Below are positions 16,891 through 40,622 of a stretch of 59,783 nt of DNA, piece by piece. How positions within the stretch are numbered: position 1 is the first letter of the stretch; each line of letters starts with the position of its first letter. The notes under the pieces were generated by a model, which saw nothing but the letters and a program-made list of their open reading frames with translations, was not told where the DNA came from and searched no databases. The stretch comes from a virus. The position numbers were made by a program, and so were the translations under genes. The DNA lies in the IMG/VR virus record IMGVR_UViG_3300027902_000011, positions 1 to 59,783 of that record; one strand, 5' to 3'.

Positions 16891-16916
16891 AAAAAAGGGC
16901 GCCCCGGAGGGCGCCC
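16891..16916 (-). terminator. Strong rho-independent terminator
   Basis: Perfect stem GGGCGCCC/GGGCGCCC (16916-16909/16904-16897) with loop TCCG and six T on the minus strand. It ends the SGNH gene transcript. Confidence 0.9.
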
Positions 16917-16937
16917 TGAGTATGATTTGGTGAGGTA

Positions 16938-17686: not shown

Positions 17687-17760
17687 TGGTGCTCCCGAGT
17701 GGAGTCGAACCACTAGCACGTCCTTACCAAAGACGTAGTCTGCCGTTAGCCTACGAGAGC
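17687..17760 (-). tRNA. tRNA-Thr (GGU)
   Basis: Acceptor GCTCTCG/CGGGAGC, anticodon loop TTGGTAA, canonical T-loop TTCGACT, CCA encoded. The CCA end overlaps a late promoter box for the SGNH gene. Confidence 0.85.
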
Positions 17761-17765
17761 GTTGT

Positions 17766-17837
17766 TGGTCGCGCAGGACGGTGCCGACCCGTCTGCAGAG
17801 CCCTTATGAGGAGCTCCTGGATGCCGATCCCAGCGCG
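17766..17837 (-). tRNA. tRNA-Met (CAU), atypical elbow
   Basis: Anticodon loop CTCATAA on a five-pair stem, acceptor CGCGCTG/CTGCGCG with one T-T mismatch, D-stem GGAT/ATCC with a 4-nt loop, T-loop GTCGGCA instead of TTC-type, CCA encoded. C1-G72 pairing suggests an elongator. Confidence 0.7.
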
Positions 17838-17901
17838 GAGATTACTCTGTATGTCATTCTTGCCCTCCAAGGGCAAGAACGTCGTATAGAACAATCGGTG
17901 T
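17838..17901 (-). other. tRNA spacer with 9-bp hairpin
   Basis: A perfect stem TTCTTGCCC/GGGCAAGAA with a 5-nt loop (17857-17879) lies in a spacer longer than the usual 5-6 nt. It has no T-tract, so a processing or pausing structure is more likely than a terminator. Confidence 0.4.
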
Positions 17902-17972
17902 TGGATGGGGACGAGCGGATTTGAACCCTCTTCATCGGCTTCAAAGGCCGACTTGCCACCTTGGTATCCCCA
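17902..17972 (-). tRNA. tRNA-Gln (UUG)
   Basis: Acceptor TGGGGAT/GTCCCCA, anticodon loop CTTTGAA, T-loop TTCAAAT, CCA encoded. Starts with T as usual for Gln. Confidence 0.85.
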
Positions 17973-17977
17973 GTGAT

Positions 17978-18052
17978 TGGAGCGGACAGCGAGTAACGAT
18001 CTCGCCTCATCTGCTTGGAAGGCAGTGGCCCATCCGTCTAGACCATGTCCGC
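17978..18052 (-). tRNA. tRNA-Gly (UCC)
   Basis: Acceptor GCGGACA/TGTCCGC, anticodon loop CTTCCAA, CCA encoded. Confidence 0.85.
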
Positions 18053-18056
18053 GTGT

Positions 18057-18131
18057 TGGAGCTGCCAGGGGGATTCGAACCCCCGTTCCCCGCTTGAAAG
18101 GCGGCGTGTCCTTCCTATAGACGATGGCAGC
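18057..18131 (-). tRNA. tRNA-Glu (UUC)
   Basis: Acceptor GCTGCCA/TGGCAGC, anticodon loop CTTTCAA, T-loop TTCGAAT, CCA encoded. Confidence 0.9.
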
Positions 18132-18137
18132 GTGAAT

Positions 18138-18227
18138 TGGCGGAGTGCCTCGGGATTGAACCGAATACGCTCTTGCATATACTTGGTTTAGCAAACCAGT
18201 GCCGGAACCCTCCGACCAGTACACTCC
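18138..18227 (-). tRNA. tRNA-Ser (GCU)
   Basis: Acceptor GGAGTGT/GCACTCC, discriminator G, loop TTGCTAA, long variable arm (TATGC/GCGTA), CCA encoded. Confidence 0.85.
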
Positions 18228-18306
18228 TGGAGCCCTCCGTGGGACTCGAACCCACATTCTCCAGTTACGGTTCCAAAGTTTAGGAAACTCGGCCGATTAG
18301 GAGGGC
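18228..18306 (-). tRNA. tRNA-Arg (CCU), no standard D-arm
   Basis: Acceptor GCCCTCC/GGAGGGC, anticodon loop TTCCTAA, T-stem GTGGG/CCCAC. Only about 8 nt separate acceptor and anticodon stems. The variable region is expanded and contains CCGTAACTGGA, shared with the Arg UCU and UCG genes. Confidence 0.65.
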
Positions 18307-18313
18307 ATGAAGT

Positions 18314-18396
18314 TGGTGCACGTCGCAGGACTCGAACCCGCATTTTCAGATCCAGTTACGGATAGTCGTTTAGAAGACGACCTCGTCTAGACGTGC
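18314..18396 (-). tRNA. tRNA-Arg (UCU), overlapped by an endonuclease gene
   Basis: Acceptor GCACGTC/GACGTGC, anticodon arm GTCGT-CTTCTAA-ACGAC. Only 8 nt stand in place of the D-arm, and the 23-nt variable region contains ATCC-GTAACT-GGAT. The endonuclease frame runs through its 5' half and stops at TAA in the anticodon loop. Confidence 0.7.
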
Positions 18397-18879
18397 TTGT
18401 TTACAGTTATCGAAATGGTATCGGTGCATATTCGGGCCTCGTCCTTCTTTTAGACAAAAAGGACAAGTATACTTGATCAAGTTATGATGAGTTCCATCAT
18501 CAAGTCGTCTCTGAGCTGTCTTACGTTGAATCTCACCACCCAAGAAAGGGTGTATTTCTTCAACAACTTGTTTTCTATTGTTTTCTTTGCCCAAGAATGG
18601 ATGAGTTCCTTTAGCAACCCGCTTATGGTTTTCCAGACTTGCTAACTCTGAAATGACTTGAGGAGACAATTTCATTCTTTGAGCTATTCTATAACAGGCG
18701 GCATAGTCGCCCTGCTCTAGATGGATCTCATAGTGATTCTGGATAGTCGTCGCCAACAGGTTCTCAATCCGGTTGTTGGTCTTGTCGCCGTCTTTGTGGT
18801 GAATCTCATAGGCACGACCATCCGCTTCCCGTGGGATGGGACCGTAGTGCTGCTCATAGATTTTTCTATAAATATGCAT
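18370..18879 (-). CDS. HNH homing endonuclease, 3' end inside tRNA-Arg
   Basis: 169 aa from ATG 18879. The N-terminal HNH reads YRKIYEQHYGPIPREADGRAYEIHHKDGDKTN-type, with N at IENLLATT. The C-terminus has a zinc-ribbon-like CPFCLKEG...HFDNCK. Paralogues are at 49950 and 53472, which end soon after FDNCK. Here the frame continues seven codons into the tRNA-Arg (UCU) gene and stops in its anticodon loop. Late promoter and conserved leader hairpin precede it. Confidence 0.88.
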   Translation of the reverse strand: MHIYRKIYEQHYGPIPREADGRAYEIHHKDGDKTNNRIENLLATTIQNHYEIHLEQGDYAACYRIAQRMKLSPQVISELASLENHKRVAKGTHPFLGKENNRKQVVEEIHPFLGGEIQRKTAQRRLDDGTHHNLIKYTCPFCLKEGRGPNMHRYHFDNCKQARLDEVVF

Positions 18880-18941
18880 GCTGGCCTCCGTCAAGGTTAG
18901 AGCCGGTGGGTCTGATCACCGTGACCGGCGTTCTATTTATA
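18880..18941 (-). promoter_or_regulatory. Late promoter plus conserved leader hairpin, copy 3
   Basis: TATAAATA (18941-18934), then GCCGGT/ACCGGC (18929-18924/18907-18902). The inner stem is GGT/ACC where other copies have GGA/TCC, a compensatory change. CTAACC and a GGAGGCC ribosome region lead to ATG 18879. Confidence 0.85.
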
Positions 18942-18954
18942 GACCTAGATTTAT

Positions 18955-19030
18955 TGGAGCACCAGGCGAGACTCGAACTCGCATATAACAGCTTTGCAGG
19001 CTGCCCCGTGACCTCTCCGGGCACTGGCGC
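18955..19030 (-). tRNA. tRNA-Cys (GCA)
   Basis: Acceptor GCGCCAG/CTGGTGC, loop CTGCAAA, T-loop TTCGAGT, CCA encoded. Confidence 0.85.
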
Positions 19031-19035
19031 GTGAT

Positions 19036-19106
19036 TGGCTACGGACACCGGACTCGAACCGATCTCGTCAGCTTCAGAGGCTGACTTCCCGCCTTGGGTA
19101 TCCGCA
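19036..19106 (-). tRNA. tRNA-Gln (CUG)
   Basis: Acceptor TGCGGAT/GTCCGTA, loop CTCTGAA, T-loop TTCGAGT, CCA encoded. Confidence 0.85.
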
Positions 19107-19110
19107 GTGA

Positions 19111-19326
19111 TTACTCTACGTCGAAGAAGTGAAAGGCGCCGGCGCCGATCATCGCGATCGCGCCGCCGTGCGGCCACTGGTACAGGCGGTTCGTGACCAT
19201 CCCGTCCGCGTCTGACCATGCCTCCAGAGACTCGTGCTCGTCGCGAGTGATCGAGCGACGACCGTAGACCATCTCCATCGTCATCTCGTGGGAGGCGCGC
19301 TGCTCCTCGGGTCCCATCTCAGCCAT
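19111..19326 (-). CDS. Small protein within the tRNA operon
   Basis: 71 aa from ATG 19326, with AGGAGAAGAAG directly upstream. Sequence MAEMGPEEQRASHEMTMEM and on, GC-rich like the core genome rather than like the endonucleases. No family is recognised. It lies 5 nt from tRNA-Gln and 14 nt from tRNA-Pro, so it must be translated from the tRNA precursor transcript. Confidence 0.7.
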   Translation of the reverse strand: MAEMGPEEQRASHEMTMEMVYGRRSITRDEHESLEAWSDADGMVTNRLYQWPHGGAIAMIGAGAFHFFDVE

Positions 19327-19339
19327 CTTCTTCTCCTGT

Positions 19340-19415
19340 TGGTCTCCGCACGGTGTTCTGCCCACCGACCTCCTGCTTCCAAGGCAGGTACTCTTCTAGC
19401 ACGAGCTTTGCAGAG
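19340..19415 (-). tRNA. tRNA-Pro (UGG), atypical T-loop
   Basis: Acceptor CTCTGCA/TGCGGAG, loop CTTGGAA, T-stem CGGTG/CACCG with loop GGCAGAA, CCA encoded. The same T-arm occurs in tRNA-Pro (CGG). Confidence 0.8.
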
Positions 19416-19420
19416 TTGAA

Positions 19421-19479
19421 TGGCACCCCGGAACTTTTGTGCAGCTGAGCCATCCTACGATGACTTACTTAGCCGGGGT
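19421..19479 (-). tRNA. Minimal tRNA-like element (59 nt), identity unknown
   Basis: Acceptor ACCCCGG/CCGGGGT with G-CCA end, a 7-nt link, hairpin GTCAT-CGTAGG-ATGGC, and a short T-arm-like AGCT/AGTT. It lacks a D-arm. It occupies a normal tRNA slot with the usual spacing. It could be a degenerate or armless tRNA. Confidence 0.4.
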
Positions 19480-19488
19480 TGTTTCGAA

Positions 19489-19564
19489 TGGAGGTTCCAC
19501 CCCGACTCGAACGGGGAACTCGACCTTCGCAGGGTCGTGATTTATCCAGTTAAACTATGGAACC
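19489..19564 (-). tRNA. tRNA-Arg (GCG)
   Basis: Acceptor GGTTCCA/TGGAACC, loop CTGCGAA, normal D-arm with CTGG, CCA encoded. It differs from the other three Arg tRNAs in having a standard D-arm. Confidence 0.85.
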
Positions 19565-19569
19565 GTGAT

Positions 19570-19644
19570 TGGCAGGGCCTACGGGAATCGAACCCGTCTT
19601 GCTCGGTTGAGAACCGAGTTTCCTAGCCGATAGAAGAAGGCCCC
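19570..19644 (-). tRNA. tRNA-Glu (CUC)
   Basis: Acceptor GGGGCCT/AGGCCCT, loop TTCTCAA, T-loop TTCGATT, CCA encoded. Confidence 0.85.
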
Positions 19645-19649
19645 TTGAT

Positions 19650-19726
19650 TGGCTCCAGCGGCTGGTTCCGACCCAGCATCGACATGAGTTAACAGCTCAC
19701 CGTCCTTACCATTTGACTACGCTGGA
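19650..19726 (-). tRNA. tRNA-Asn (GUU)
   Basis: Acceptor TCCAGCG/CGCTGGA, loop CTGTTAA, T-loop GTCGGAA (first T replaced), CCA encoded. Confidence 0.8.
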
Positions 19727-19734
19727 ATGAAAGT

Positions 19735-19806
19735 TGGTGGAGTAATCGGGTACCGCCCCCGACGCGACAATCTTGCAAGGATCGTCTGCACCCTTGTGCC
19801 TACCCC
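19735..19806 (-). tRNA. tRNA-Ala (UGC), atypical elbow
   Basis: Acceptor GGGGTAG/TTACTCC, loop CTTGCAA, D-stem GCAC/GTGC with 4-nt loop AAGG, T-loop GGCGGTA, CCA encoded. No U8 is apparent. Confidence 0.75.
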
Positions 19807-19811
19807 GTTGT

Positions 19812-19886
19812 TGGTCCCCTAGAACGGAATCGAACCGCTGACGCACTCCTCTTCAGGGAGCCGCTCTACCACTGAGCTACACGGGG
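19812..19886 (-). tRNA. tRNA-Phe (GAA)
   Basis: Loop CTGAAGA, standard D- and T-arms; acceptor CCCCGTG/CTAGGGG has two internal mismatches. CCA encoded. Confidence 0.75.
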
Positions 19887-19892
19887 TTGTGT

Positions 19893-19966
19893 TGGCGCGG
19901 AATGTGGGAGTCGAACCCACGCTGCGAGTGTGGCACACTCGTCGACTGCCGTAATCTTTATTCCGC
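19893..19966 (-). tRNA. tRNA-Gly (GCC)
   Basis: Acceptor GCGGAAT/ATTCCGC, loop GTGCCAC, CCA encoded. Its first 9 nt are also the last codons of the preceding endonuclease, whose TAA stop lies at the acceptor end. Confidence 0.85.
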
Positions 19967-20395
19967 TTTGATCTTGTTTTTTCCGCAATATGTCGGTGTC
20001 TGTGCATGACAGTTAGGACACAATATGCGTAAATTTTTTAACTTATGATTTTTTGAATTACCGTCAACGTGATCAAGGTGCATTGACAGCGGCTTCTTAT
20101 TCCATTCTGTTATCCCACATTCTTCACACTTATTACTTTTGACGCCTTCCTTAAGAAGTCTTCTTTTAAGATGTGGAGTAGGATACTGAGGATGCTGGCC
20201 ATCGAGAATTTCATCTAAAGCAATGGGTTTCTGATATCCGCCATTTACGAAGGTCAAGCCGAGTTTTTGTGCTCGTCTAAAGATAGTTATATCGGGAACC
20301 AAGAATTTAGCAGCCAGACGCCCAAGTGTGGGTTCTTTATTGTAGGCGCTAATGAGTTCTTGATCAGTAAATCTGTCTTTGTGTTTCTGCTGCAT
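19958..20395 (-). CDS. HNH endonuclease with Cys4 zinc site
   Basis: 145 aa. N-terminal helical region with a possible HTH (LGRLAAKFLVPDITIFRRAQ). HNH core: CEECG, LSMHLDHVDGNSKNHKL, ILCPNCHAQTPTYCGKN, with catalytic His and Asn and two zinc CxxC pairs. The stop codon TAA lies in the acceptor stem of tRNA-Gly (GCC). A TATATATA box 4 nt before ATG 20395 implies a near-leaderless message. Confidence 0.88.
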   Translation of the reverse strand: MQQKHKDRFTDQELISAYNKEPTLGRLAAKFLVPDITIFRRAQKLGLTFVNGGYQKPIALDEILDGQHPQYPTPHLKRRLLKEGVKSNKCEECGITEWNKKPLSMHLDHVDGNSKNHKLKNLRILCPNCHAQTPTYCGKNKIKAE

Positions 20396-20456
20396 ATTCT
20401 ATATATACAATCAGTTTTGAAAACAGACTTTAACATGGGATCAAATTTTACGAGAA

Positions 20457-20540
20457 TGGTCCGCTACCTAGGAATCGAACCTAGCAGGCTATAAGCGCAG
20501 CTTTTACAGAGCCGCTCAGTCCCCAGACTTGCCGTAACGG
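20457..20540 (-). tRNA. tRNA-Tyr (GUA)
   Basis: Acceptor CCGTTAC/GTAGCGG, loop CTGTAAA, long variable arm, T-loop TTCGATT, CCA encoded. Confidence 0.88.
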
Positions 20541-20546
20541 TTGAGT

Positions 20547-20620
20547 TGGTTGCGCAGCTACGAGTTACACGTAGGTCCTAAGTTTATGAGACTTAGATGG
20601 GGTTCCTCCACTACCGCGCC
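20547..20620 (-). tRNA. tRNA-Met (CAU), initiator-like
   Basis: Loop CTCATAA on TAAGT/ACTTA; acceptor GGCGCGG/CTGCGCA has a G-A mismatch at position 1-72, the hallmark of bacterial initiators. T-loop TGTAACT is unusual. The three G-C pairs typical of initiator anticodon stems are absent. CCA encoded. Confidence 0.7.
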
Positions 20621-20753
20621 GTAAGAATTGGTTGGCGAGTTGCACGCCCACGGTTTTACATCCGAACTCATGCTATTAGATTTATGCGAGCAGTAATAGG
20701 AATGAATACCTATCTCTTGGGCCGCTGGTCGCGCCGGCCCGACTGTTGCTCTA
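20621..20753 (-). other. Unassigned structured segment behind an internal promoter
   Basis: A GGGCCG/CGGCCC hairpin (about 20718-20742) lies near the expected 5' end of the transcript. An AT-rich hairpin CTATTA/TAATAG follows, and the segment ends in CCAACCA. No tRNA fold could be built. Possibly a leader or a decayed tRNA. Confidence 0.35.
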
Positions 20754-20782
20754 TTTATATCACCTCGACGATAAGTTGTCAA
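20754..20782 (-). promoter_or_regulatory. Internal early promoter of the tRNA operon
   Basis: -35 TTGACA (20782-20777), 17-nt spacer ending GGTGA, -10 TATAAA (20759-20754). It would drive tRNA-Met and the tRNAs downstream. Confidence 0.8.
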
Positions 20783-20788
20783 GGGAAT

Positions 20789-20877
20789 TGGCGGAGGGCC
20801 CGAGAATCGAACTCGATACCGTCTGGTACGTCCTGTTTTCGAGGCAGGCGCGAGGGGCCACCCCGCTTGTACCCTCC
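20789..20877 (-). tRNA. tRNA-Ser (CGA)
   Basis: Acceptor GGAGGGT/GCCCTCC, discriminator G, loop CTCGAAA, long variable arm, CCA encoded. Confidence 0.8.
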
Positions 20878-20966
20878 TGGCGGAAGACTGTGGTCTTGAT
20901 CCACAAGCACTCGCGCGCTCGTGACGCTTTCCAGGCGTACCTGCCCTCCCGAGCAGTTAGTCTTCC
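20878..20966 (-). tRNA. tRNA-Ser (GGA)
   Basis: Acceptor GGAAGAC/GTCTTCC, discriminator G, loop CTGGAAA, long variable arm, T-loop ATCAAGA, CCA encoded. Confidence 0.8.
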
Positions 20967-20970
20967 TTAT

Positions 20971-21058
20971 TGGCGGATGCCAGGCTGTGTCGATCACCAT
21001 ACCGTGAGGTACCTGCCGGGTTCAAACCGGAGACGGGAGCCGTCCCGCGTTGGCATCC
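20971..21058 (-). tRNA. tRNA-Ser (UGA)
   Basis: Acceptor GGATGCC/GGCATCC, discriminator G, loop TTTGAAC, long variable arm, weak T-stem, CCA encoded. Third of three tandem Ser genes. Confidence 0.7.
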
Positions 21059-21063
21059 TTGAA

Positions 21064-21147
21064 TGGAGGTCCCAGCAGGATTCGAACCCGCGTTTTCAGC
21101 TCCAGCTACGGTTTACGACGTTCGAAGCGTCGTTCGGCTATGGGACC
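21064..21147 (-). tRNA. tRNA-Arg (UCG), no standard D-arm
   Basis: Acceptor GGTCCCA/TGGGACC, anticodon arm CGACG-CTTCGAA-CGTCG, 8 nt between acceptor and anticodon stems, long variable region with CCGTAGCTGGA...TGAAAAC, T-loop TTCGAAT, CCA encoded. Confidence 0.7.
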
Positions 21148-21148
21148 G

Positions 21149-21517
21149 TTATTGCTCGCCGTCTCGCTTGGAGCGGCTGTGGTAGAACTTAGACATCGTG
21201 ACCTTCTGGATCAGACGGTCGTCCTTGAGGATCGAGGGACCCTTCAGCGACTTGCCGTCGATCGCCATGAACGTCGCCTCCAGCAGGTGGTCGAGGTCGG
21301 GCGAAGACGGATTGACGTAGAGGACCTCTAGGTCTATCGGATAGTCGATCGGCAGGTCTGTCTGTGCAGAGATGGATCGACGAGCTGAGTCGAGTATGTC
21401 CTCGCGGTACTGCTGAAGCGCCCGCCGGTGCATCCGCTTGTGCGGAGCGTGGTGCAGGTTGAGCTTGAGTACCGGCGGGAACGCGCTGTCGTCCAGCCTT
21501 ACGAAGTAGCCTCTCAT
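21149..21517 (-). CDS. RusA-like Holliday junction endonuclease
   Basis: 122 aa within the tRNA operon, GC-rich like the core. The second half, LYVNPSSPDLDHLLEATFMAIDG followed by ILKDDRLIQ, carries the spaced aspartates of the RusA family (D-x-D, D-G, D-D). The N-terminal LNLHHAPHKRMHRR resembles the basic RusA start. RusA-type enzymes resolve four-way junctions during recombination. The call is from motif pattern; its position between tRNA-Arg and tRNA-Ile gives no functional hint. Confidence 0.6.
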   Translation of the reverse strand: MRGYFVRLDDSAFPPVLKLNLHHAPHKRMHRRALQQYREDILDSARRSISAQTDLPIDYPIDLEVLYVNPSSPDLDHLLEATFMAIDGKSLKGPSILKDDRLIQKVTMSKFYHSRSKRDGEQ

Positions 21518-21536
21518 AACGTCCTCATAGTGTGAT

Positions 21537-21626
21537 TGGTCCGCCGTATAGGTAACGATCCTATCCGAGAAGGCTTATCTGGCCCAACTGCTTATAAGAC
21601 AGTCCTGCTCACCTGAGCTACAGCGG
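21537..21626 (-). tRNA. tRNA-Ile (UAU), enlarged variable arm
   Basis: Acceptor CCGCTGT/ACGGCGG, anticodon arm ACTGT-CTTATAA-GCAGT, D-stem GCTC/GAGC with 4-nt loop, 22-nt variable region able to form GGGC/GCCT, T-stem ATAGG/CCTAT with loop ATCGTTA, CCA encoded. Confidence 0.7.
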
Positions 21627-21631
21627 TTTAT

Positions 21632-21707
21632 TGGTCAGGGTGCGGTGTTCTGCCCACCGTCCACTTCCTTCCGAGGGAAGTAATCTTCTAACACGATATT
21701 CACCCTG
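21632..21707 (-). tRNA. tRNA-Pro (CGG), atypical T-loop
   Basis: Acceptor CAGGGTG/CACCCTG, loop CTCGGAA, T-arm CGGTG-GGCAGAA-CACCG as in tRNA-Pro (UGG), CCA encoded. Confidence 0.82.
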
Positions 21708-21712
21708 TCGAT

Positions 21713-21787
21713 TGGCGCTTCGTAGGGGAGTTGAACCCCTCTCAGCCGGTTGACAACCGGACCGCCACACCCGCAGCGTCACGAAGC
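21713..21787 (-). tRNA. tRNA-Asp (GUC)
   Basis: Acceptor GCTTCGT/ACGAAGC, loop TTGTCAA, T-loop TTCAACT, CCA encoded. Confidence 0.88.
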
Positions 21788-21793
21788 TTGTAT

Positions 21794-21876
21794 TGGTGTC
21801 CGACGTGGGACTCGAACCCACAAAAACCCGGCTTCTCAGGCCGTCAGGTGTGCCATTTTCCATAGGTCAGTCGGAC
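21794..21876 (-). tRNA. tRNA-Leu (GAG)
   Basis: Acceptor GTCCGAC/GTCGGAC, loop CTGAGAA on CGGC/GCCG, T-loop TTCGAGT, CCA encoded. Confidence 0.75.
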
Positions 21877-21881
21877 GTTTT

Positions 21882-21962
21882 TGGTGTGCCAGGTGGGGAT
21901 CGAACCCACATTTTCAACCTATTACCTTACTCGAGATTAAGAGTCACGGAGGTTACTGGCGC
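21882..21962 (-). tRNA. tRNA-like gene of uncertain identity, overlapped by an endonuclease
   Basis: Acceptor GCGCCAG/CTGGCAC (one mismatch), normal T-arm and CCA. The anticodon stem is ACTC/GAGT with an 8-nt loop TTAATCTC. The variable region (GGTAATAGG, TGAAAAT) resembles the D-armless Arg tRNAs. The endonuclease frame ends at TAA in the loop. Possibly damaged by the insertion. Confidence 0.5.
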
Positions 21963-22530
21963 GTTGTCTTGTTTTTGCTAAAGTTGTTCGTATTTTTTGC
22001 TTTGTTTCTTCGGAGCGCGGTTTACCGAACATTGGATTATTTTTGCCGGCAATCGCAGGTCTTGGACCTTTTAACCGTTCAATCGTCTCCGGTTTGTGTT
22101 TTTTACCAGTCCAACTTTTGTTACCCAGTCTCTTTTTACGTTGTGCTTCTGAATTGTGCAACTTTTCAGAATTTTTCTGAATCCACAGTTTTACTTGTTG
22201 TTTGTGGAACTCAGACTGTTTTTTGCCTTTAAACCCTGGTGATAAATTGCTGTTGATGTAGCCCCAACCGCCTTTGCCACCTGGGCACAAGTTGTAATTG
22301 GTCTCGCGATCTGGAACTACCATGATCCGCTCAGCGAGATTGATGTCGCCTTCGTTGTTTGCCTCGATCAAGATCTCAGTCTTGAAGTTCTCGATGCCGT
22401 ACTTCTTGATAGACCGCTTAAGCAACTTACCAGACCCCATGTAGCCGTCGTTGACGTCTCGAGTCTTGTGTTTGCCGATGTAGTACTTGCCGTTGACTAG
22501 ACAAGTGGTTTTGTAGATCACGTAGTGCAT
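21937..22530 (-). CDS. GIY-YIG homing endonuclease (SegB-like), 3' end in tRNA-like gene
   Basis: 197 aa. Catalytic module HYVIYKTTCLVNGKYYIGKH with DGYMGSGKLLKRSIKKYG and a Glu in NLAERIMV; NUMOD3-like basic repeats follow (SEFHKQQV, RSEETKQKI). About 64% identical by eye in the first 90 residues to its paralogue at 24184. Its stop codon lies in the anticodon loop of the downstream tRNA-like gene. A ribosome-site-sequestering hairpin with the late box in its loop precedes it. Confidence 0.9.
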   Translation of the reverse strand: MHYVIYKTTCLVNGKYYIGKHKTRDVNDGYMGSGKLLKRSIKKYGIENFKTEILIEANNEGDINLAERIMVVPDRETNYNLCPGGKGGWGYINSNLSPGFKGKKQSEFHKQQVKLWIQKNSEKLHNSEAQRKKRLGNKSWTGKKHKPETIERLKGPRPAIAGKNNPMFGKPRSEETKQKIRTTLAKTRQRASNLRDS

Positions 22531-22583
22531 TTAGTTGCCTCCTAGCAGAGGATAGCGGTCAAGCTATTTATCGTGCTAGGAGG
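22531..22583 (-). promoter_or_regulatory. Ribosome-site hairpin enclosing a late promoter
   Basis: Arms CCTCCTAGCA and TGCTAGGAGG (22583-22574/22547-22538) form a 10-bp stem that buries GGAGG. GATAAATA (22572-22565) is in the loop. A transcript from that box lacks the 5' arm, leaving the ribosome site free; read-through RNA folds it shut. Confidence 0.8.
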
Positions 22584-22589
22584 TCTATG

Positions 22590-22663
22590 TAGACCAGGTG
22601 GGGTACGATCCCACATAAATCCGATTAAAAGTCGGAGCCGTAGCCAATTCCGGTCACTGGTCC
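22590..22663 (-). tRNA. tRNA-Lys (UUU), CCA not encoded
   Basis: Acceptor GGACCAG/CTGGTCT, anticodon arm TCCGA-CTTTTAA-TCGGA. The 3' end reads A-CATAG, so CCA is missing. The endonuclease leader hairpin begins a few nt downstream. Confidence 0.8.
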
Positions 22664-22729
22664 ATGAGGCTAATCCAAGTCCCGCTGACTTTGATCGGGT
22701 GAAGAGCATCTGCTCAACTTGAACGGTGT
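22664..22729 (-). other. tRNA spacer, 66 nt
   Basis: Longer than normal spacers. Contains GAGCA/TGCTC and CCCG/CGGG short stems. No tRNA or ORF seen. Confidence 0.3.
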
Positions 22730-22803
22730 TGGTACGCGTGGTAGGTACTGCCCCTACTTGCAAACGGTTATCGGCCGCTTCCTTCGCTTCTGAGATCACG
22801 CGT
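22730..22803 (-). tRNA. tRNA-Ile (GAU), C33
   Basis: Acceptor ACGCGTG/CACGCGT, anticodon loop CCGATAA with C in place of the near-universal U33, T-arm GTAGG-GGCAGTA-CCTAC, CCA encoded. Confidence 0.7.
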
Positions 22804-22807
22804 GTGT

Positions 22808-22882
22808 TGGTGCGTCTTGTAGGAGTCGGACCTACTGCTTCCACCATGTCGGGGTGGCACTCTACCGATGAGTTAAAGACGC
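22808..22882 (-). tRNA. tRNA-Val (GAC), C33
   Basis: Acceptor GCGTCTT/AAGACGC, anticodon arm CCACC-CCGACAT-GGTGG with C33, T-loop TCCGACT, CCA encoded. Confidence 0.75.
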
Positions 22883-22888
22883 TTGAAT

Positions 22889-22962
22889 TGGTAGTCCCTG
22901 ACGGAATCGAACCATCGTGGCCGCCATGTAAGAGCGGTGTTCTCCCATTGAACTAAGGGACC
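22889..22962 (-). tRNA. tRNA-Val (UAC)
   Basis: Acceptor GGTCCCT/AGGGACT, loop CTTACAT, T-loop TTCGATT, CCA encoded. Confidence 0.85.
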
Positions 22963-22973
22963 GTGAAGTTAAA

Positions 22974-23249
22974 GCACGAAACTAATAAGCCGGATTCTGT
23001 ATAAGATGATCATCTGACTTGATCTACGGTTGCCCGCAGATTCTTTGCCACAACCCGGAACTCAACGGCTGATACTATCCTCGTTCCTGTTTGTGTCGCT
23101 CCCGATAGAGAATGGCACGTTTCACCCGAACTTAATCGGCTCGTTTCTGTTCCTCTAATCCTCAGGTTACCCTGGATGGTTGTTAACCACTATCGTGTAT
23201 CTTGGAGTCCGGACTTTCCTCCCCGTAGGGCGATCATCTGGTTTCGTGC
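22974..23249 (-). ncRNA. rnpB: RNase P RNA (phage-encoded rnpB)
   Basis: About 276 nt. P1: 5' GCACGAAAC pairs perfectly with 3' GTTTCGTGC. P2: GATGATC pairs with GATCATC. Conserved core: GGGGAGGAAAGTCCGGACTC (5' P3/P4 region), ACAGAAAC (CR-II), GGGTGAAACG, AACAGGAACGAGG, TAGATCAAGTCAG (compare TAGATGAATGACTG in E. coli) and ACAGAATCCGGCTTAT (P4 3' strand). The catalytic RNA cleaves 5' leaders from pre-tRNAs, and it lies in the middle of the tRNA operon, 11 nt from tRNA-Val. It is shorter than host type A RNAs (about 350-400 nt), with reduced peripheral helices. The endonuclease frame covers its first 60 nt. Confidence 0.92.
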
Positions 23250-23657
23250 TTTAATAGATTCAGATATTTTTTTTCGATGTTCAGGGGTTAATGCTTCTTT
23301 CTTCTTTTTGTTGTGTTTCCGTTTTCGTAAACTTTCTAAATTTTTAGGACTTAGAGAACCACCATATTTTTTAGATAATTTAAGCATGACTTCTGAAAGT
23401 TTTCTTTTATGTTCTAAACTTTTAGGAATATTTTTATTGGCTCGACCTGCATTCTTTTGTATCTCATAGATCAATTCTTGTTTAGTTATCATTCCACTAA
23501 GAGATAACCATGCACTTTTATCTTGCCATTCTCCCAATTCTTCATATCTAATTCTATGAAGGAAGGCATGTAATGTCACATTGCAACGTAACAGATTTCG
23601 CGGAGTATTAGTTCCGCCAGCATGTTCTGGTATTATATGGTGCATGTGCCAAAGCAT
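23190..23657 (-). CDS. HNH homing endonuclease, 3' end inside RNase P RNA
   Basis: 155 aa. HNH core MHHIIPEHAGGTNTPRNLLR with NVTLHAFLHRIRYEELG, then NUMOD3-like repeats (LEHKRKLSEVML, PEHRKKISESI). The last ~20 codons are the 5' end of the RNase P RNA gene; the tail GGKSGLQDTR is the translation of the universal GAGGAAAGTCC region. A GATAAATA late box 4 nt before ATG 23657 predicts a near-leaderless late message. Paralogues are at 43547 and 56585. Confidence 0.9.
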   Translation of the reverse strand: MLWHMHHIIPEHAGGTNTPRNLLRCNVTLHAFLHRIRYEELGEWQDKSAWLSLSGMITKQELIYEIQKNAGRANKNIPKSLEHKRKLSEVMLKLSKKYGGSLSPKNLESLRKRKHNKKKKEALTPEHRKKISESIKARNQMIALRGGKSGLQDTR

Positions 23658-23660
23658 AAT

Positions 23661-23798
23661 TTATTTATCCTTAGGTATTTCATTTGCACAACTAAATGGT
23701 TGATCTTGGCAGAGGATGATACGATGATCCACATAATGGACATCTTGGCGCTTCAGCTTGATCCTCTTGAGTCCCTGGTCACATAGAGTGCAGGCCAT
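23661..23798 (-). CDS. Small Cys-rich protein (45 aa)
   Basis: MACTLCDQGLKRIKLKRQDVHY and on, with an early CxxC and two further cysteines. ATG 23798 has AGGA 7 nt upstream. It lies between tRNA-Leu (UAA) and the RNase-P-linked endonuclease, and its 3' end overlaps that gene's late box. Possibly a small zinc-binding protein; function unknown. Confidence 0.5.
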   Translation of the reverse strand: MACTLCDQGLKRIKLKRQDVHYVDHRIILCQDQPFSCANEIPKDK

Positions 23799-23810
23799 GA
23801 TATTTCCTTT

Positions 23811-23887
23811 TGGTGTCCAAGGTGGGATTCGAACCCACAGCATCCTACGTTTTAAGCGCGGGTGGTCTGCCAGTTGCCTACTCGGAC
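23811..23887 (-). tRNA. tRNA-Leu (UAA)
   Basis: Acceptor GTCCGAG/CTTGGAC, loop CTTAAAA, T-loop TTCGAAT, CCA encoded. Confidence 0.8.
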
Positions 23888-23892
23888 TTGAT

Positions 23893-23968
23893 TGGTACCC
23901 CAGCCGGGAGTCGGACCCGGACTCAACTGCTTTTGAGGCAGTCCGCTTTGCCCTTTGCGTACTGGGGT
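23893..23968 (-). tRNA. tRNA-Leu (CAA)
   Basis: Acceptor ACCCCAG/CTGGGGT, anticodon arm ACTGC-CTCAAAA-GCAGT, T-loop TCCGACT, CCA encoded. Confidence 0.85.
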
Positions 23969-23971
23969 GAT

Positions 23972-24049
23972 TGGTGTTCCGAGTGAGATTCGAACTCACA
24001 CTGTACGGCTTCTGAGACCGTTGTCTGCTGCCAGTTGGACTACCGGAAC
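23972..24049 (-). tRNA. tRNA-Leu (CAG)
   Basis: Acceptor GTTCCGG/TCGGAAC, anticodon arm ACGGT-CTCAGAA-GCCGT, T-loop TTCGAAT, CCA encoded. Confidence 0.85.
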
Positions 24050-24143
24050 TTGAATTTCGTCCCTGTTTTTAATGAGGTGCCGGGAACCTCAACCGGTAAG
24101 CACAAGAGCAGATCTAGAAACCGCTCAATAGTAATCCGGCAAT
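24050..24143 (-). other. Spacer with tRNA-like hairpins
   Basis: Contains GCCGG...CCGGC pairing over about 61 nt and a hairpin GCGG-T-TTCTAGA-T-CTGC whose loop would present CTA as anticodon (reads UAG). Acceptor pairing is only five base pairs and CCA is not encoded, so a functional tRNA is doubtful. Confidence 0.3.
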
Positions 24144-24220
24144 TGGTGCGAGCCGGGGGAGTTGAACCCCCAACCACATGGTTCTAAACCATGCCGCTTT
24201 GCCTGTTTGCGTAGGCTCGC
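24144..24220 (-). tRNA. tRNA-Leu (UAG), overlapped by an endonuclease gene
   Basis: Acceptor GCGAGCC/GGCTCGC, anticodon arm CATGG-TTTAGAA-CCATG, T-loop TTCAACT, CCA encoded. The endonuclease's stop codon TAG (24184-24186) is the anticodon itself. Confidence 0.88.
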
Positions 24221-24792
24221 TTTAATGATTCTGAGATGCGGCGTTTTGTTTCTTCAGACCGTGATTTTCCATATTGAGAATTTTTTGGCCCAACATGCTT
24301 TCCAATGTGCGAACGACGCATCTTTTGTTTTGTAACGTCAGAGTGTTTTTTACCTCTCCACCATTCTTGAGATATTTGTTGTGCTAAAAGCATATTCTTA
24401 ATAGCAGATTTACGACGCTTTTCGGTGAATGGTTTTTTTACAAGAATATCTCTACAAACTTTAGCGGCCGCCCGGCGTTGTGCTAGCGGATGGGCTAAAC
24501 CATTAGCATTGACATATCCCCAGCCGCCATGGCCACCTGGACATAGGTTGTAATTAGTCTCGCGATCTGGAACGACCAAGATGCGCTCGGCAAGATTTAT
24601 GTCGTACTCGTTATTAGTTTCTATGATGACTTCGGTTACAAAATTCTCGATGCCATACTTCTTGATGGCCTGCTTAAGCAACTTACCAGACCCCATATAG
24701 CCGTCGTAAGGGTAGCGCTTCTTGAGTTTGTGTTTACCGATGTAGTACTTGCCGTTGACGAGACAAGTCGTCTTATAGATCACATAGTGCAT
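24184..24792 (-). CDS. GIY-YIG homing endonuclease (SegB-like), stops at a tRNA anticodon
   Basis: 202 aa. HYVIYKTTCLVNGKYYIGKHK, DGYMGSGKLLKQAIKKYG and NLAERILV form the GIY-YIG module; basic NUMOD3-like repeats follow (SDVTKQKMRRSH, RSEETKRRIS). The last 12 codons lie in the 5' half of tRNA-Leu (UAG), ending on its anticodon. The leader hairpin has the late box as its exact loop. Paralogue at 21937. Confidence 0.9.
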   Translation of the reverse strand: MHYVIYKTTCLVNGKYYIGKHKLKKRYPYDGYMGSGKLLKQAIKKYGIENFVTEVIIETNNEYDINLAERILVVPDRETNYNLCPGGHGGWGYVNANGLAHPLAQRRAAAKVCRDILVKKPFTEKRRKSAIKNMLLAQQISQEWWRGKKHSDVTKQKMRRSHIGKHVGPKNSQYGKSRSEETKRRISESLKRAYANRQSGMV

Positions 24793-24828
24793 TTAGTTAC
24801 CTCCAGGACTATTTATCGTCCTGGAGGT
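24793..24828 (-). promoter_or_regulatory. Perfect hairpin whose loop is the late promoter
   Basis: ACCTCCAGGAC/GTCCTGGAGGT (24828-24818/24809-24799), 11 bp, with loop GATAAATA (24817-24810). A late transcript would start about at the GGAGG of the 3' arm, freeing it. Longer transcripts would hide it. Confidence 0.85.
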
Positions 24829-24829
24829 C

Positions 24830-24901
24830 TGTGCAAGGGGCGTAGGAATTGAACCCACTCTTGTGAGGTTGGAGCTCACCGTGCTACCGTAACACTTGCC
24901 C
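24830..24901 (-). tRNA. tRNA-Trp (CCA), altered 3' end
   Basis: Anticodon arm GTGAG-CTCCAAC-CTCAC and T-arm GTGGG-TTCAATT-CCTAC are sound. The acceptor can pair GGGCAAG/CTTGCAC only with one mismatch and four extra nt, and CCA is not encoded. The junction with the endonuclease leader may have replaced the original end. Confidence 0.65.
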
Positions 24902-24904
24902 GAT

Positions 24905-24978
24905 TGGTACCGAGTGTAGGGATCGAACCTACTTTTCCGGGTCCACAGCCCAGCGTTCTACCATTGAACTAAAACGGC
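24905..24978 (-). tRNA. tRNA-His (GUG)
   Basis: Anticodon arm CTGGG-CTGTGGA-CCCGG, D- and T-arms standard, CCA encoded. The acceptor has two mismatches near its base. Confidence 0.78.
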
Positions 24979-24983
24979 GTGAT

Positions 24984-25058
24984 TGGTGCCGATCAGAGGA
25001 ATCGAACCCCTGCACCTCGCTTACAAAACGAGGCCTCTGCCACTAAGGTTAGATCGGC
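24984..25058 (-). tRNA. tRNA-Thr (UGU)
   Basis: Acceptor GCCGATC/GATCGGC, anticodon arm CTCGT-TTTGTAA-GCGAG, T-loop TTCGATT, CCA encoded. Confidence 0.85.
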
Positions 25059-25067
25059 GTGATTCTG

Positions 25068-25133
25068 GGAGACACTCAAGCGCCCGCTCAAGTGCTCCGG
25101 CGAGTAGACTCTGGACCGGGCGGTCCTCTCTAC
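25068..25133 (-). ncRNA. Two-hairpin RNA with complementary loops
   Basis: Hairpin 1 (25133-25104): GTAGA and GGACC stems around loop GCCC. Hairpin 2 (25098-25068): GGAG and CACTTGAGC stems around loop GGGC, the latter stem using two G-U pairs valid only in the minus-strand RNA. The loops are complementary, so a kissing contact is possible. It sits where a tRNA would be expected. Function unknown. Confidence 0.5.
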
Positions 25134-25138
25134 CGTGA

Positions 25139-25214
25139 TGGTGCCGACTGCAGGAATCGAACCCGCGGCCTCTACCTTACGAGGGGAGCGCTCTACCATT
25201 TGAGCTAAGCCGGC
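25139..25214 (-). tRNA. tRNA-Thr (CGU)
   Basis: Acceptor GCCGGCT/AGTCGGC, loop CTCGTAA, T-loop TTCGATT, CCA encoded. Confidence 0.85.
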
Positions 25215-25677: not shown

Positions 25678-25706
25678 ATAGTACACTATTCACGGTTATT
25701 TGTCAA
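25678..25706 (-). promoter_or_regulatory. tRNA-operon promoter, distal
   Basis: -35 TTGACA (25706-25701), 17-nt spacer ending AGTG, -10 TACTAT (25683-25678), in tandem 95 bp upstream of the proximal one. Confidence 0.8.
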
Positions 25707-36631: not shown

Positions 36632-37085
36632 AGATGTCTTTTTTATGGTCTTCCTTAGAACCCTTTTTAGTAACACGAAAAAGATATTTCAGGGCGGTAT
36701 CTCGGCATGAAGTAAATGCAGAACCTAAGGCTTTCCACATGTCGAACGCCTCGATGTCGTCAGTCGCCTTGTAGTGCTCGCCGTACGTCTTAGCGACGTA
36801 CTCCAGGAGCTCGGAGACGATCTCTGGCTCGTCGTACTTGAACTTGGTCTCGTTCGTCTTCGCTGTCATCTTGAAGCCGTTTGAGAACGTCCAGCTAGTG
36901 TTCGCGAACGGCGACGAAGAGATATAGCCAATGGGCGACGTAGTCTTGATCTCGTCCTCTCGCGGATCGAGCGGGAACGGACAGTCGTCGATGCCGCAGT
37001 CGGGCAACTTGTCGCCGCGCCTGGAGCAGAGGAAGCACGACTCCCTCCACGGGTACAGCTTGTCGGGTCCTGTAGTGTCGGTCAT
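36546..37085 (-). CDS. DUF3310-like phage protein
   Basis: 179 aa from ATG 37085, overlapping the methyltransferase stop by ATGA. N-terminal half has cysteines (CFLCSRRGDKLPDCGIDDC). The C-terminal half, IEAFDMWKALG, TALKYLFRVTKKGSKEDHKKDIFKAIHYCILML, matches the DUF3310 (SaV-like) pattern of phage nucleotide-linked proteins. The C-terminus is AT-rich near the endonuclease. Confidence 0.7.
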   Translation of the reverse strand: MTDTTGPDKLYPWRESCFLCSRRGDKLPDCGIDDCPFPLDPREDEIKTTSPIGYISSSPFANTSWTFSNGFKMTAKTNETKFKYDEPEIVSELLEYVAKTYGEHYKATDDIEAFDMWKALGSAFTSCRDTALKYLFRVTKKGSKEDHKKDIFKAIHYCILMLHILRREDVSHDAQRDQG

Positions 37086-38284
37086 GCGAACGCTGCCTCT
37101 ACCGAGACCATAGACGTCGGAGAGTCGTCCCTCGTCTCGTGCTTCTGTTGGTGGTTGGACTGGAACAGGTAGTCCGTCTTGACCCAGGGACGCTCGTCCT
37201 CGAGAGCTGCGACCACCTCCGATGCCATGTCGGCAGCGGTGTCGACTGGCACGTTCTGACAGACGTGGTTGAGCTGGCGCTTCGGATCGAGGAGCTCGAA
37301 GTCTTGCGGGAGTCCCATGATCGTCATGCACTCTCGATAGTTCAGGAAGCGGTCCTTGGTCGGATGCGCGATGTTGATCTGGAGGTGGCCGACGAACGCG
37401 CCGATATAGTCCTTGGGAATGATGATCGAGCGGTGCATGATGCCTCCGCCCTTTGCCAGCTTCTCAGTGACCCGACCGGTCCACGCCGCCTCGCGCTCGT
37501 ATCCCTTCTTGGTCAGCCACTCGCCGAGCTGCTCATAGGAGACACCGTTGTCTTCGATGATCTCCAGAACCTGAGTAGACTTCATGATCCCCTTTGAGAA
37601 CTCTCGGTGGGTCACGCCTCCAGCGACTTCTTCGAGTACGAAGCGATACAGGGCATCCTCTGACGGCTTCTTCTTCGTGGGCGTCTCGGTCTGGAAGTTG
37701 CTCTTGACGCCGAGGATCAGGTCCTCGATTCTCTGGTGGTCGCGTCGGAAGTAGTTCAAGATCGGCGCCTTGTCGCCCTTCCAGAAGAAATAGAACGAGC
37801 GCTCGCGGATCTGAGGGACACCGTGGAACAGCGACTTGGTACGGTACACCGACATGGTGTACCCGTACTTCTTACCGACGGCACGGATGCGCTCGCGCAC
37901 CGGCTCGCCCATAGCACTTGCTAAAGCAGGAGCATTTTCACCCCAATAAACGTCTGGTTTCATTTCACCAAGTACATATTCTGCACAAGTTACAAGCCAT
38001 TCATTCAACGGATTATTTGCACCCGCAGTTTTGGAGAGCATGCTAAGACCTGCGCAAGGGCAGACAGACGACACCACGTCGATCTTTCCTCGCGGTCGTT
38101 TATCACCTTTATCAACAACAATATAGGGAATAACCTTTCCCTGCTGTTTATAATAATTCAACAAATGGGAATCATTTGCTGCAAATGGCGTATAAGAGAC
38201 CAAGTATTCTGGCGGTTTGCCGAATACGCGTTCTGAAGCAAGCGTCTCGCCGCCGATCAATGGGACTATGCTAACATGCTTCAT
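37082..38284 (-). CDS. DNA (cytosine-5) methyltransferase
   Basis: 400 aa. Catalytic motif IV VCPCAGLSML (Pro-Cys), motif VI WGENAPAL (ENV-like), motif VIII QIRERSFYF, late LNYRECMTIMGLPQDF (motif IX-X region). Methylates C5 of cytosine in DNA. With the glycosyltransferase-like and dCMP genes downstream it may belong to a base-modification set. The 5' third alternates between AT-rich and GC-rich blocks. It overlaps the upstream endonuclease by 14 nt. Confidence 0.88.
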   Translation of the reverse strand: MKHVSIVPLIGGETLASERVFGKPPEYLVSYTPFAANDSHLLNYYKQQGKVIPYIVVDKGDKRPRGKIDVVSSVCPCAGLSMLSKTAGANNPLNEWLVTCAEYVLGEMKPDVYWGENAPALASAMGEPVRERIRAVGKKYGYTMSVYRTKSLFHGVPQIRERSFYFFWKGDKAPILNYFRRDHQRIEDLILGVKSNFQTETPTKKKPSEDALYRFVLEEVAGGVTHREFSKGIMKSTQVLEIIEDNGVSYEQLGEWLTKKGYEREAAWTGRVTEKLAKGGGIMHRSIIIPKDYIGAFVGHLQINIAHPTKDRFLNYRECMTIMGLPQDFELLDPKRQLNHVCQNVPVDTAADMASEVVAALEDERPWVKTDYLFQSNHQQKHETRDDSPTSMVSVEAAFA

Positions 38285-40400: not shown

Positions 40401-40622
40401 TCATGCGTCGGGTGCGGAAACTTGTGGCACTTCTCGCCACTCTTCTCTCATCCATACCGGTTTACCATTTTCATAGTCTGTCACAGACCACAGTTGCTGA
40501 AGTCTAGGCCTCCCTGGGCCGGACATAAACCCGCCCAGAACAGAAACAACCCAGCGAACTTGGGCGTTGCACTCACTAGTAGTGTGTCGTGCAATAAATG
40601 CTTTTTCTACTATCTCGTCCAC
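40401..40622 (-). CDS. Small protein with GTG start (73 aa)
   Basis: VDEIVEKAFIARHTTSECNA and on to EWREVPQVSAPDA. GTG 40622 overlaps the deaminase stop by 13 nt; no clear SD, so translation is probably coupled. Trp-rich middle (QLWSVTDYENGKPVWMREEW). Unknown function. Confidence 0.6.
   Translation of the reverse strand: MDEIVEKAFIARHTTSECNAQVRWVVSVLGGFMSGPGRPRLQQLWSVTDYENGKPVWMREEWREVPQVSAPDA

Follow-up and report, generated by a model that had tools for sequence, protein, structure and literature searches.

The locus described here raises the question of whether a phage can carry its own RNase P RNA among its tRNA genes and, if so, whether such an RNA is a working enzyme. RNase P is the classic trans-acting ribozyme supplied by the host. 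The processing of T4 tRNA precursors was among the founding cases of RNase P, according to the available part of PMC11143913. The locus lies in a viral record of 59,783 nucleotides, the whole of which was analyzed and is called the window hereafter.

The original prediction, made from the letters of the DNA alone, placed an RNase P RNA on the minus strand at 22974-23249 and named a search with Rfam covariance models and the formation of P2 and P4 as the means of checking it. The search returns a match to RF00010, the model of bacterial class A RNase P RNA, at 22970-23249 on the minus strand with 170.9 bits and an E-value of 2e-53. The gathering score of the model is 100 bits and the match covers positions 1-367 of its 367. 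A chance or weak match is ruled out by this E-value, and no second RF00010 match at E<=0.001 was found in the 59,783-base record. P1 and P2 (GATGATC/GATCATC), both predicted to close, pair without exception when the helices are drawn on the sequence, and P4 forms with its bulged U present (Table 1). P5 (4/4 pairs), P16 (5/5 pairs), P7-P11 and P15 can likewise be drawn completely. P3 amounts to no more than 3 pairs, and P17 could not be established. The P6 pseudoknot and P16/P17 are the marks of class A as opposed to class B, and P4 is the helix that holds the catalytic metal site. The elements GAGGAAAGUC, P4 with its bulged U, and ACAGAAUCCGGCUUA are all intact. J18/2 reads AGUCAGAUG where the Rfam consensus has AGAUGAAUG, and the AGUCA that it contains is common to the window RNA and the phage RNA L187. 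The CGGGUU segment, or GGU in L15, should pair with the 3' CCA of tRNA; in the window RNA the segment is present and the contact itself is inferred. The identity of the gene as an RNase P RNA is thus supported by the covariance-model match together with the helices.

Table 1. Positions in the window of the RNase P RNA, its helices and the surrounding features.
Feature	Position	Strand	Basis
RNase P RNA (class A type), 280 nt	22970..23249	-	RF00010 and helices
P1, 5' strand GCACGAAAC, 9/9 pairs with GUUUCGUGC	23241..23249 / 22974-22982	-	drawn helices
P2, 5' strand GAUGAUC, 7/7 pairs with GAUCAUC	23232..23238 / 23005-23011	-	drawn helices
P4, 5' strand AAG-U-CCGG, bulged U, 7/7 pairs (3+4) with CCGGCUU	23209..23216 / 22987-22993	-	drawn helices
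P6 pseudoknot GAUAC, 5/5 pairs with GUAUC	23197..23201 / 23071-23075	-	drawn helices
P12, 4-bp hairpin; P13 and P14 absent	23126..23139	-	model alignment and drawn helices
3' strands of P16 and P15 with CGGGUU segment	23049..23061	-	drawn helices; CGGGU aligned to model
P18, 8 bp, GCAA loop	23022..23041	-	drawn helices
tRNA array around the RNase P RNA, 26 tRNAs, all on the same strand	17687..25214	-	ARAGORN
tRNA-Val(UAC), first tRNA downstream, 11 nt after P1	22889..22962	-	ARAGORN; RF00005 60.3 bits
HNH homing-endonuclease-like ORF	23190..23657	-	PF01844 E 2e-5, residues 3-22 only
NUMOD3 homing-endonuclease-like ORF; 3' end overlaps tRNA-Leu(UAG) 24144-24220	24184..24792	-	PF07460
GIY-YIG/NUMOD3 homing-endonuclease-like ORF	21937..22530	-	PF07460; PF19835 just under cut-off
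Promoter-like site TTGACA-17-TACTAT upstream of the array	25678..25706	-	consensus match only
Terminator-like hairpin downstream of the array, 9-pair stem and T run	16896..16917	-	sequence pattern
T4-like major capsid protein Gp23, marking the contig as phage	57181..58554	-	PF07068 E 2.9e-145

The location in a phage tRNA operon was also borne out, with tRNA genes of the same strand on both sides of the RNase P RNA. Judged by its gene content the contig is a fragment of a T4-like phage: besides Gp23, it encodes UvsW, a family B polymerase, a gp44-like clamp loader, a RecA-like protein and a T4-type scaffold protein. The phage tRNA-array context of the gene is supported because of these T4-like genes and because the same layout is observed in other viral contigs and in one cultured phage. 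The profile phrog_2, which we take to be a large-terminase family (no name appears in the profile output), is only weak evidence of phage identity, since it matches 11 of 14 control cell genomes besides 14 of 40 records and since its match in the window falls inside the UvsW-like ORF. No relatives of the GDSL-lipase-like neighbor in the window were found. The figure of about 40 tRNAs that accompanied the prediction is too high: ARAGORN detects 26, of which 24 have encoded CCA ends, and 8 T-arm-plus-CCA segments outside these bring the number to approximately 34 at most. Gaps of 6 nt or less separate neighboring ARAGORN tRNAs at 11 of the 25 junctions of the array. Since 11 nt separate P1 from tRNA-Val, a cut at the 5' end of this tRNA would, by inference, also free the 3' side of the ribozyme.

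All three homing-endonuclease-like ORFs extend at their 3' end into the 5' portion of the RNA gene or tRNA-like segment that follows. The overlap of the HNH ORF takes in the first 60 nt of the RNase P RNA, and that of the GIY-YIG/NUMOD3 ORF falls in a tRNA-like segment at 21885-21962 (26.7 bits, below the cut-off). The RNase P gene is thus placed toward these elements like another tRNA gene. Promoter-like sites in the region are barely above chance (11 versus 6.6 expected, sd 2.3) and terminator-like sites show no excess over chance (10 versus 9.6 expected).

The pairing was quantified in an alignment of nine sequences, consisting of the window RNA, seven other phage RNAs and one Polynucleobacter RNA, in which 76 pairs are named. 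Pairing is observed in 87.6% of the cells of this alignment, with two-sided changes at 55 of the 76 pairs, in 150 cells. None of 500 shuffles reached the observed value on any of five measures, and pairing falls to 30-40% when the partner is slid by 1-3 columns. The structure was drawn on the window RNA, which consequently pairs fully by construction and is favored in the sliding control. All 7 pairs of P4 are invariant, all 8 pairs of P18 display two-sided changes, and the weak spots (P3, P6 and P16, with 59%, 42% and 60% of cells paired, respectively) are poorly aligning regions. Divergence was measured on 85 columns with a conservation of 95% or more among 38 cell sequences. The window RNA deviates at 13 of these, 3 of which correspond to the alignment gap at the short P3, whereas the cell sequences deviate at 1.3 columns on average and at 6 at most.

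The closest kin of the RNA were sought in cell genomes. All 60 genomes searched in the order of Polynucleobacter gave a match. An exact-pattern scan listed 80 cell loci, from which 77 P RNAs could be extracted, and 8 of these have a short gap between GUGAAA and GGAGCAA. They originate from Polynucleobacter, two Cupriavidus, Duodenibacillus and Protistobacter genomes, all presumably Burkholderiales, and from a TM6, a Bdellovibrionota and a Kiritimatiellae. A gap of 16-17 nt, as in the window RNA, is present in 16 of 50 extracted Burkholderiales RNAs and was not measurable in 7. These 50 are not a random sample, as they comprise 29 of the 30 best-scoring RNAs, 20 from the shorter rest, and Polynucleobacter; 3 of them were mis-oriented. 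The Burkholderiales class A RNAs of this kind, e.g. that of Polynucleobacter, share with the window RNA the match over the whole RF00010 model, the core, the lack of P13 and P14, the 16-17 nt gap and a mini P12. They differ from it in that the window RNA is phage-encoded and located in a tRNA array, with a stub P3, an altered J18/2 and changes at 13 of 85 conserved columns. The presence of P13/P14 varies within the class A family and their absence does not disqualify a member; nor can their loss be taken as a phage hallmark, since some Burkholderiales RNAs have the same geometry. The predicted size of about 276 nt holds (276-280 nt), but its smallness is only slightly unusual, the 16 Burkholderiales RNAs without P13/P14 measuring 291-372 nt.

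The best local alignments of the window RNA are with an RNA from the order of Polynucleobacter (L461, 78.8% over 240 positions) and with that of Polynucleobacter itself (L311, 75.7% over 239), followed after the Burkholderiales by the phage RNAs L168 and L187. In a tree of 46 rows containing cell and phage P RNAs, the window RNA joins L187 (support 96/85), and together with five other phage RNAs it groups with four Burkholderiales rows including Duodenibacillus (99/97). The branches of the phage RNAs in this group are much longer than those of the cells, that of the window included, and the exact placement is unsure because of these long branches. The host of the phage is probably a member of the Burkholderiales, which is an inference. 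Two further phage RNAs (L165 and L173) are found elsewhere in the tree with two actinobacterial rows (96/83), so that, as far as this tree can tell, rnpB seems to have been captured by phages more than once.

Recurrence of the gene in viral records was surveyed with two exact patterns of the canonical core, which match 41 and at least 119 viral stretches. RF00010 matches at E<=0.001 were obtained for 40 of the 41 records of the first pattern (34 over the cut-off) and in 32 of 50 records of the second (13 over the cut-off), which represent 50 of its 56 new loci. Both core motifs are present at 49 of the 97 viral loci listed from the two patterns, and 25 of these 49, among the matches listed, have at least three tRNAs within 3 kb. 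No phage origin is claimed for loci that lack tRNAs, which may be bacterial sequence; some high-scoring P RNA records of IMG/VR and INPHARED without a nearby tRNA may likewise be cellular, their genes being unexamined. Weak RF00010 matches of 13-26 bits rest mostly on the 3' motif and were left out of the counts. The loci are not independent, as identical pairs exist (e.g. L186/L193 and L170/L175). Gp23 was identified in 3 of 40 records of this canonical class, among them the window. RnpA (PF00825) was found in none of 40 records, the window included, many of which are fragments, while 10 of 14 control genomes were positive; an enzyme built on the phage RNA would therefore probably still need the host protein.

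The distribution among relatives is patchy. RF00010 matches are absent in 34 of 35 records with a related Gp23, many of them short fragments, the remaining one being a 92-kb record with a weak match of 63.5 bits. They are also absent at E<=0.001 in 17 of 18 named isolates, T4 included, the matches of KVP40 and Cr30 being at chance level (E 0.8 and 2). Most relatives seem to do without an RNase P RNA of their own, on the evidence of absences that are soft because RF00010 also misses most RNAs of the class described below. When the window RNA (E up to 10) and four other phage P RNAs were compared with INPHARED by BLASTN, no convincing isolate emerged; the searches gave nothing, short matches, an Acinetobacter and a Salmonella record of bacterial appearance, or 'Bacteriophage sp.' records from feces that carry no annotation. 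Of these fecal records, two have RF00010 matches of 288-294 bits but no tRNA in the surrounding 8.2 kb, and they were not counted as phage. The rnpB matches in CAKLQF020000022 and CAKLQH020000044 (Acinetobacter phage MD-2021a) and in AGRM01000002 lie in INPHARED records that resemble bacterial chromosome, and sister records of Acinetobacter phage MD-2021a match clpX.

A number of smaller forms were also noted. Phage RNase P RNAs of 196-243 nt occur in L195 (196 nt), L167/L177 (L167, 227 nt), L190, L192 and L198, all in loci with several tRNAs except L195; in the alignment to the model, most of the specificity domain is missing from L167 and L190. An RNA of approximately 100 nt, on the complement of positions ~130-228 of L204 (contig of L093), lies between tRNA genes and keeps only P1, P3 and P4, with GAGGAAAGUCCGG followed almost directly by ACAGAAACCGGCUUAC. 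It is either a deletion remnant or a mimic that binds RnpA. L083 and L125 have similar tRNA arrays with the motif ACAGAANCCGGCUUAY and a 50-nt RF00010 match or none, and are possibly another diverged form.

The one named isolate of the 18 with an RF00010 match at E<=0.001 is Stenotrophomonas phage DLP6 (KU682439), which is also the closest cultured relative of the window by capsid (68.2%). Its match at 105774-106022 (54.7 bits, E 3.3e-17) is below the Rfam cut-off, and cmscan with the usual filters reports no RF00010 match at this locus. The claim of an RNase P RNA in DLP6 accordingly rests on the 54.7-bit match, the helices and an exact motif pair. The RNA fills an unannotated gap between the end of a hypothetical gene at 105767 and a tRNA-Arg at 106026, inside a tRNA cluster. 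P1, P2, P3, P5 and P6 (7 bp) form, the specificity domain is replaced by a small element and P4 is rewritten. In the RNAs of DLP6 and of the 92-kb record, GAGGAAGUUCGSG / YCSCGGCUA replace GAGGAAAGUCCGG / YCCGGCUUA, with unchanged length and with the bulged U retained. The possibility that P4 of DLP6 is one pair shorter was ruled out by this motif comparison, which reveals a rewrite of the same length with compensating changes. Like the window RNA, that of DLP6 belongs to a T4-like phage and lies in a tRNA cluster directly before a tRNA gene; it differs from it by the rewritten P4, the small element in place of the specificity domain and the score below the cut-off. The paper describing DLP6 reports 30 tRNAs at 92,962-113,834, and neither 'RNase P' nor 'ribonuclease P' occurs in its main text, the part of the paper available here (PMC5349666).

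Two patterns of the rewritten P4 match 110 and 55 viral stretches, and 94 viral loci (among L483-L633) contain both motifs in order, 14 of them exactly. A motif pair could have as many as 4 mismatches in total, and a few of the 94 may therefore be false. A tRNA lies within 3 kb at 82 of these loci and at least three tRNAs at 74, while 12 have none. With DLP6 the set amounts to 95 loci, or 75 that are distinct by a 140-nt stretch; 91 of the 95 could be parsed and 71 were usable. The first variable pair of P4 is paired in all 71 (GC 38, CG 32, TG 1; shuffled mean 35.6, maximum 51). The second is less perfect, with pairing in 67 of the 71 (mean of 52.7 and maximum of 59 after shuffling). P5 is readable in 54, of which 53 are fully paired with 12 different 5' strands (shuffled mean 10.6, maximum 21). 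GAGGAA, GCAA..AAACAG, CGGGUU..GC, AG..AAAU and AACA.AA are invariant or nearly so in an alignment of 20 members. In 50 records drawn from the 94, RF00010 matches at E<=0.01 in 8, a single one over the cut-off, so routine annotation would miss most of these RNAs; Gp23 is over the cut-off in 12, including contigs of 462 and 465 kb.

A relative was identified in the uncultured phage LR756501 (735,411 bp) at 181316-181535, with 76.7% identity over 88% of the query and no tRNA in 6.2 kb around it. An automatic search for its P1 gave only a spurious 6-mer, and 9 pairs with two G-U can be recognized by eye. The abstract of PMC7162821 puts its largest phage at 735 kb, and LR756501 is taken to be that phage; 'RNase P' does not occur in the main text, the portion of this source at our disposal. 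A related stretch in another uncultured phage of 634,780 bp (L639, LR745206) carries yet another P4-like segment (GAGAAACUUCGAC / GUCGGGU) and is without a tRNA over 6 kb.

The canonical and rewritten forms are tied together by RNAs that combine a rewritten P4 with a specificity domain of the window type. L510 has a rewritten P4 and a specificity domain closely like that of the window; its 168-kb T4-like record has a single RF00010 match of 191 bits, taken to be that RNA. A pattern built on P12 of the window matches 7 stretches, among them L606, L630, L634, L636 and L637, in which a rewritten 5' P4 strand accompanies a window-type ACAGAGACGAG-CCGAUU segment. The 3' P4 strand is matched automatically in L606 and L637, whereas L634 and L636 have no automatic match and ACUCCGGCUA is found by eye; L630 is rewritten by the 5' motif only. 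L635 was not counted as a bridge, as it displays neither motif. It is inferred that the window, with its canonical P4, and the rewritten-P4 class probably form one phage-centered radiation, at least in this branch. A wider proposal is that tRNA-rich and giant phages took up rnpB on several occasions and made an RNase P of their own from it. On this view a large class, known so far from phages alone (cell genomes having not been searched for it), carries a compensated rewrite of P4, the most conserved helix in the ribozyme, and often has a compact element in place of the specificity domain. This class might stand as a distinct enzyme that has a substrate preference of its own or resists host control. 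We regard this wider proposal as evenly balanced between right and wrong.

The reading of the window locus that we favor, with good if incomplete confidence, is that a T4-like phage has captured a host rnpB, now much changed, and uses it as a working RNase P with host RnpA on phage pre-tRNAs. The sequence of the RNA, its complete fold, its conserved core motifs, its genomic context and its recurrence in other phages are observed, while transcription, RnpA binding, catalysis, benefit and host group are inferred. On this reading, an rnpB probably of a Burkholderiales host would have entered the tRNA array and diverged there, its RNA folding as a class A ribozyme without P13 and P14. The RNA would be transcribed along with the tRNAs during infection and be partly freed when RNase P cuts at the 5' end of the tRNA-Val that follows it. 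Host RnpA would bind it, and the holoenzyme would cut the 5' leaders of some 26-34 phage pre-tRNAs, giving extra capacity for processing at a time when many tRNAs are produced together and transcription of the host rnpB stops. The idea, already part of the original prediction, that tRNA maturation would become partly independent of the host remains an inference, as both the transcript and the activity are inferred. Counted in favor of a working ribozyme are the full-length match, the pairing, the intact core, the CGGGU segment with CCA, the tRNA-array context, the recurrence and the kinship; counted against it are the deviations at 13 of 85 columns, J18/2, the 3-pair P3, the lack of RnpA, the patchy relatives and the long-branch tree. 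A gain in capacity, the replacement of host rnpB after shut-off and an escape from host control cannot be distinguished from sequence.

Several observations speak for a captured rnpB that has hitch-hiked with tRNAs and homing endonucleases and is decaying without function: the window RNA deviates at more conserved columns than any cell sequence of the set, its branch in the tree is very long, an HNH ORF enters its 5' end, and the gene is patchily distributed among relatives and isolates. This reading is nevertheless unlikely, since a complete fold can be drawn despite a difference of ~21% from the nearest cell row, since the relatives exhibit two-sided changes at 55 of 76 pairs where decay should lose pairs, and since the odd J18/2 is shared by phage L187. 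An even less likely alternative makes the RNA a decoy without enzymatic activity that, through binding to host RnpA or pre-tRNAs, inhibits host RNase P or redirects it. As no RnpA was found in 40 records, any such RNA would compete with the host P RNA for the protein, and reduced phage forms exist in which the specificity domain is mostly lost (L167, L190) or only P1, P3 and P4 remain (L204/L093). The window RNA, however, keeps the catalytic core, CGGGU and the specificity domain, none of which a pure RnpA decoy would need.

The RNA might also be an active RNase P whose main substrates are other phage transcripts, or whose specificity is altered, rather than a source of extra capacity. The frequent linkage to tRNA genes and the encoded CCA of these tRNAs speak against such a role, to which the deviations of the window RNA at conserved columns and the rewritten P4 of other phages lend some support, and we allow it a slim chance at best. 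An assembly chimera or host contamination is hardly credible. The doubt over some viral P RNA records without a nearby tRNA, which may be cellular, bears on this explanation, yet in the window the gene has tRNAs of its own strand and homing-endonuclease-like ORFs as neighbors within a T4-like contig, differs by ~21-24% from the closest sampled cell P RNAs, and has a layout that is met again in other contigs and in the complete genome of a cultured phage. Contamination was rejected for the window on these flanking genes, divergence and recurrence.

The fold is that of a class A RNase P RNA, a known kind. What is new, insofar as it is absent from the open literature searched, is the presence of such an RNA in phage tRNA arrays and the existence of a rewritten-P4 class. 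No report of a phage RNase P RNA or of this class was found among the open PMC papers listed, subscription papers and preprints outside PMC being beyond the scope of the search. Theta ribozymes resemble the window RNA as phage-encoded ribozymes linked to phage tRNAs; in the accessible sections of the paper that describes them they are HDV-like, with a postulated cis action on the tRNA 3' trailer, whereas the window RNA would be a trans-acting 5' leader enzyme. The authors of that paper postulate, in the same sections, that phages of this kind may be able to dispense with particular host RNases (PMC10879173). The RNase P RNAs of CPR bacteria have also lost helices, many being without P13, P14, P16 and P17, and some were found only under the model threshold, as far as the consulted part of PMC8172020 indicates; they are cell genes, in contrast to the phage tRNA-array gene of the window. 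An RNase P RNA encoded by a phage changes what phages can supply for translation and offers a direct test of why they keep tRNA arrays, and naturally rewritten P4 helices are a test of the tolerance of a ribozyme core to change. As one member is present in the cultured DLP6 and a relative in the 735-kb LR756501, the question is testable now.

Other genes of the window were noted in passing. A C5-cytosine methylase-like protein is encoded close to a TET-associated glycosyltransferase (PF20691), at 37082-38284 and 38912-39751, and the pair is perhaps a DNA hypermodification pathway. ORFs resembling dCMP deaminase and thymidylate synthase come next (40610-41933). At 54838-56094, this T4-like phage encodes a ClpX-like ATPase with a zinc finger, to which gp258 of Bacillus phage G is similar (53.6%).
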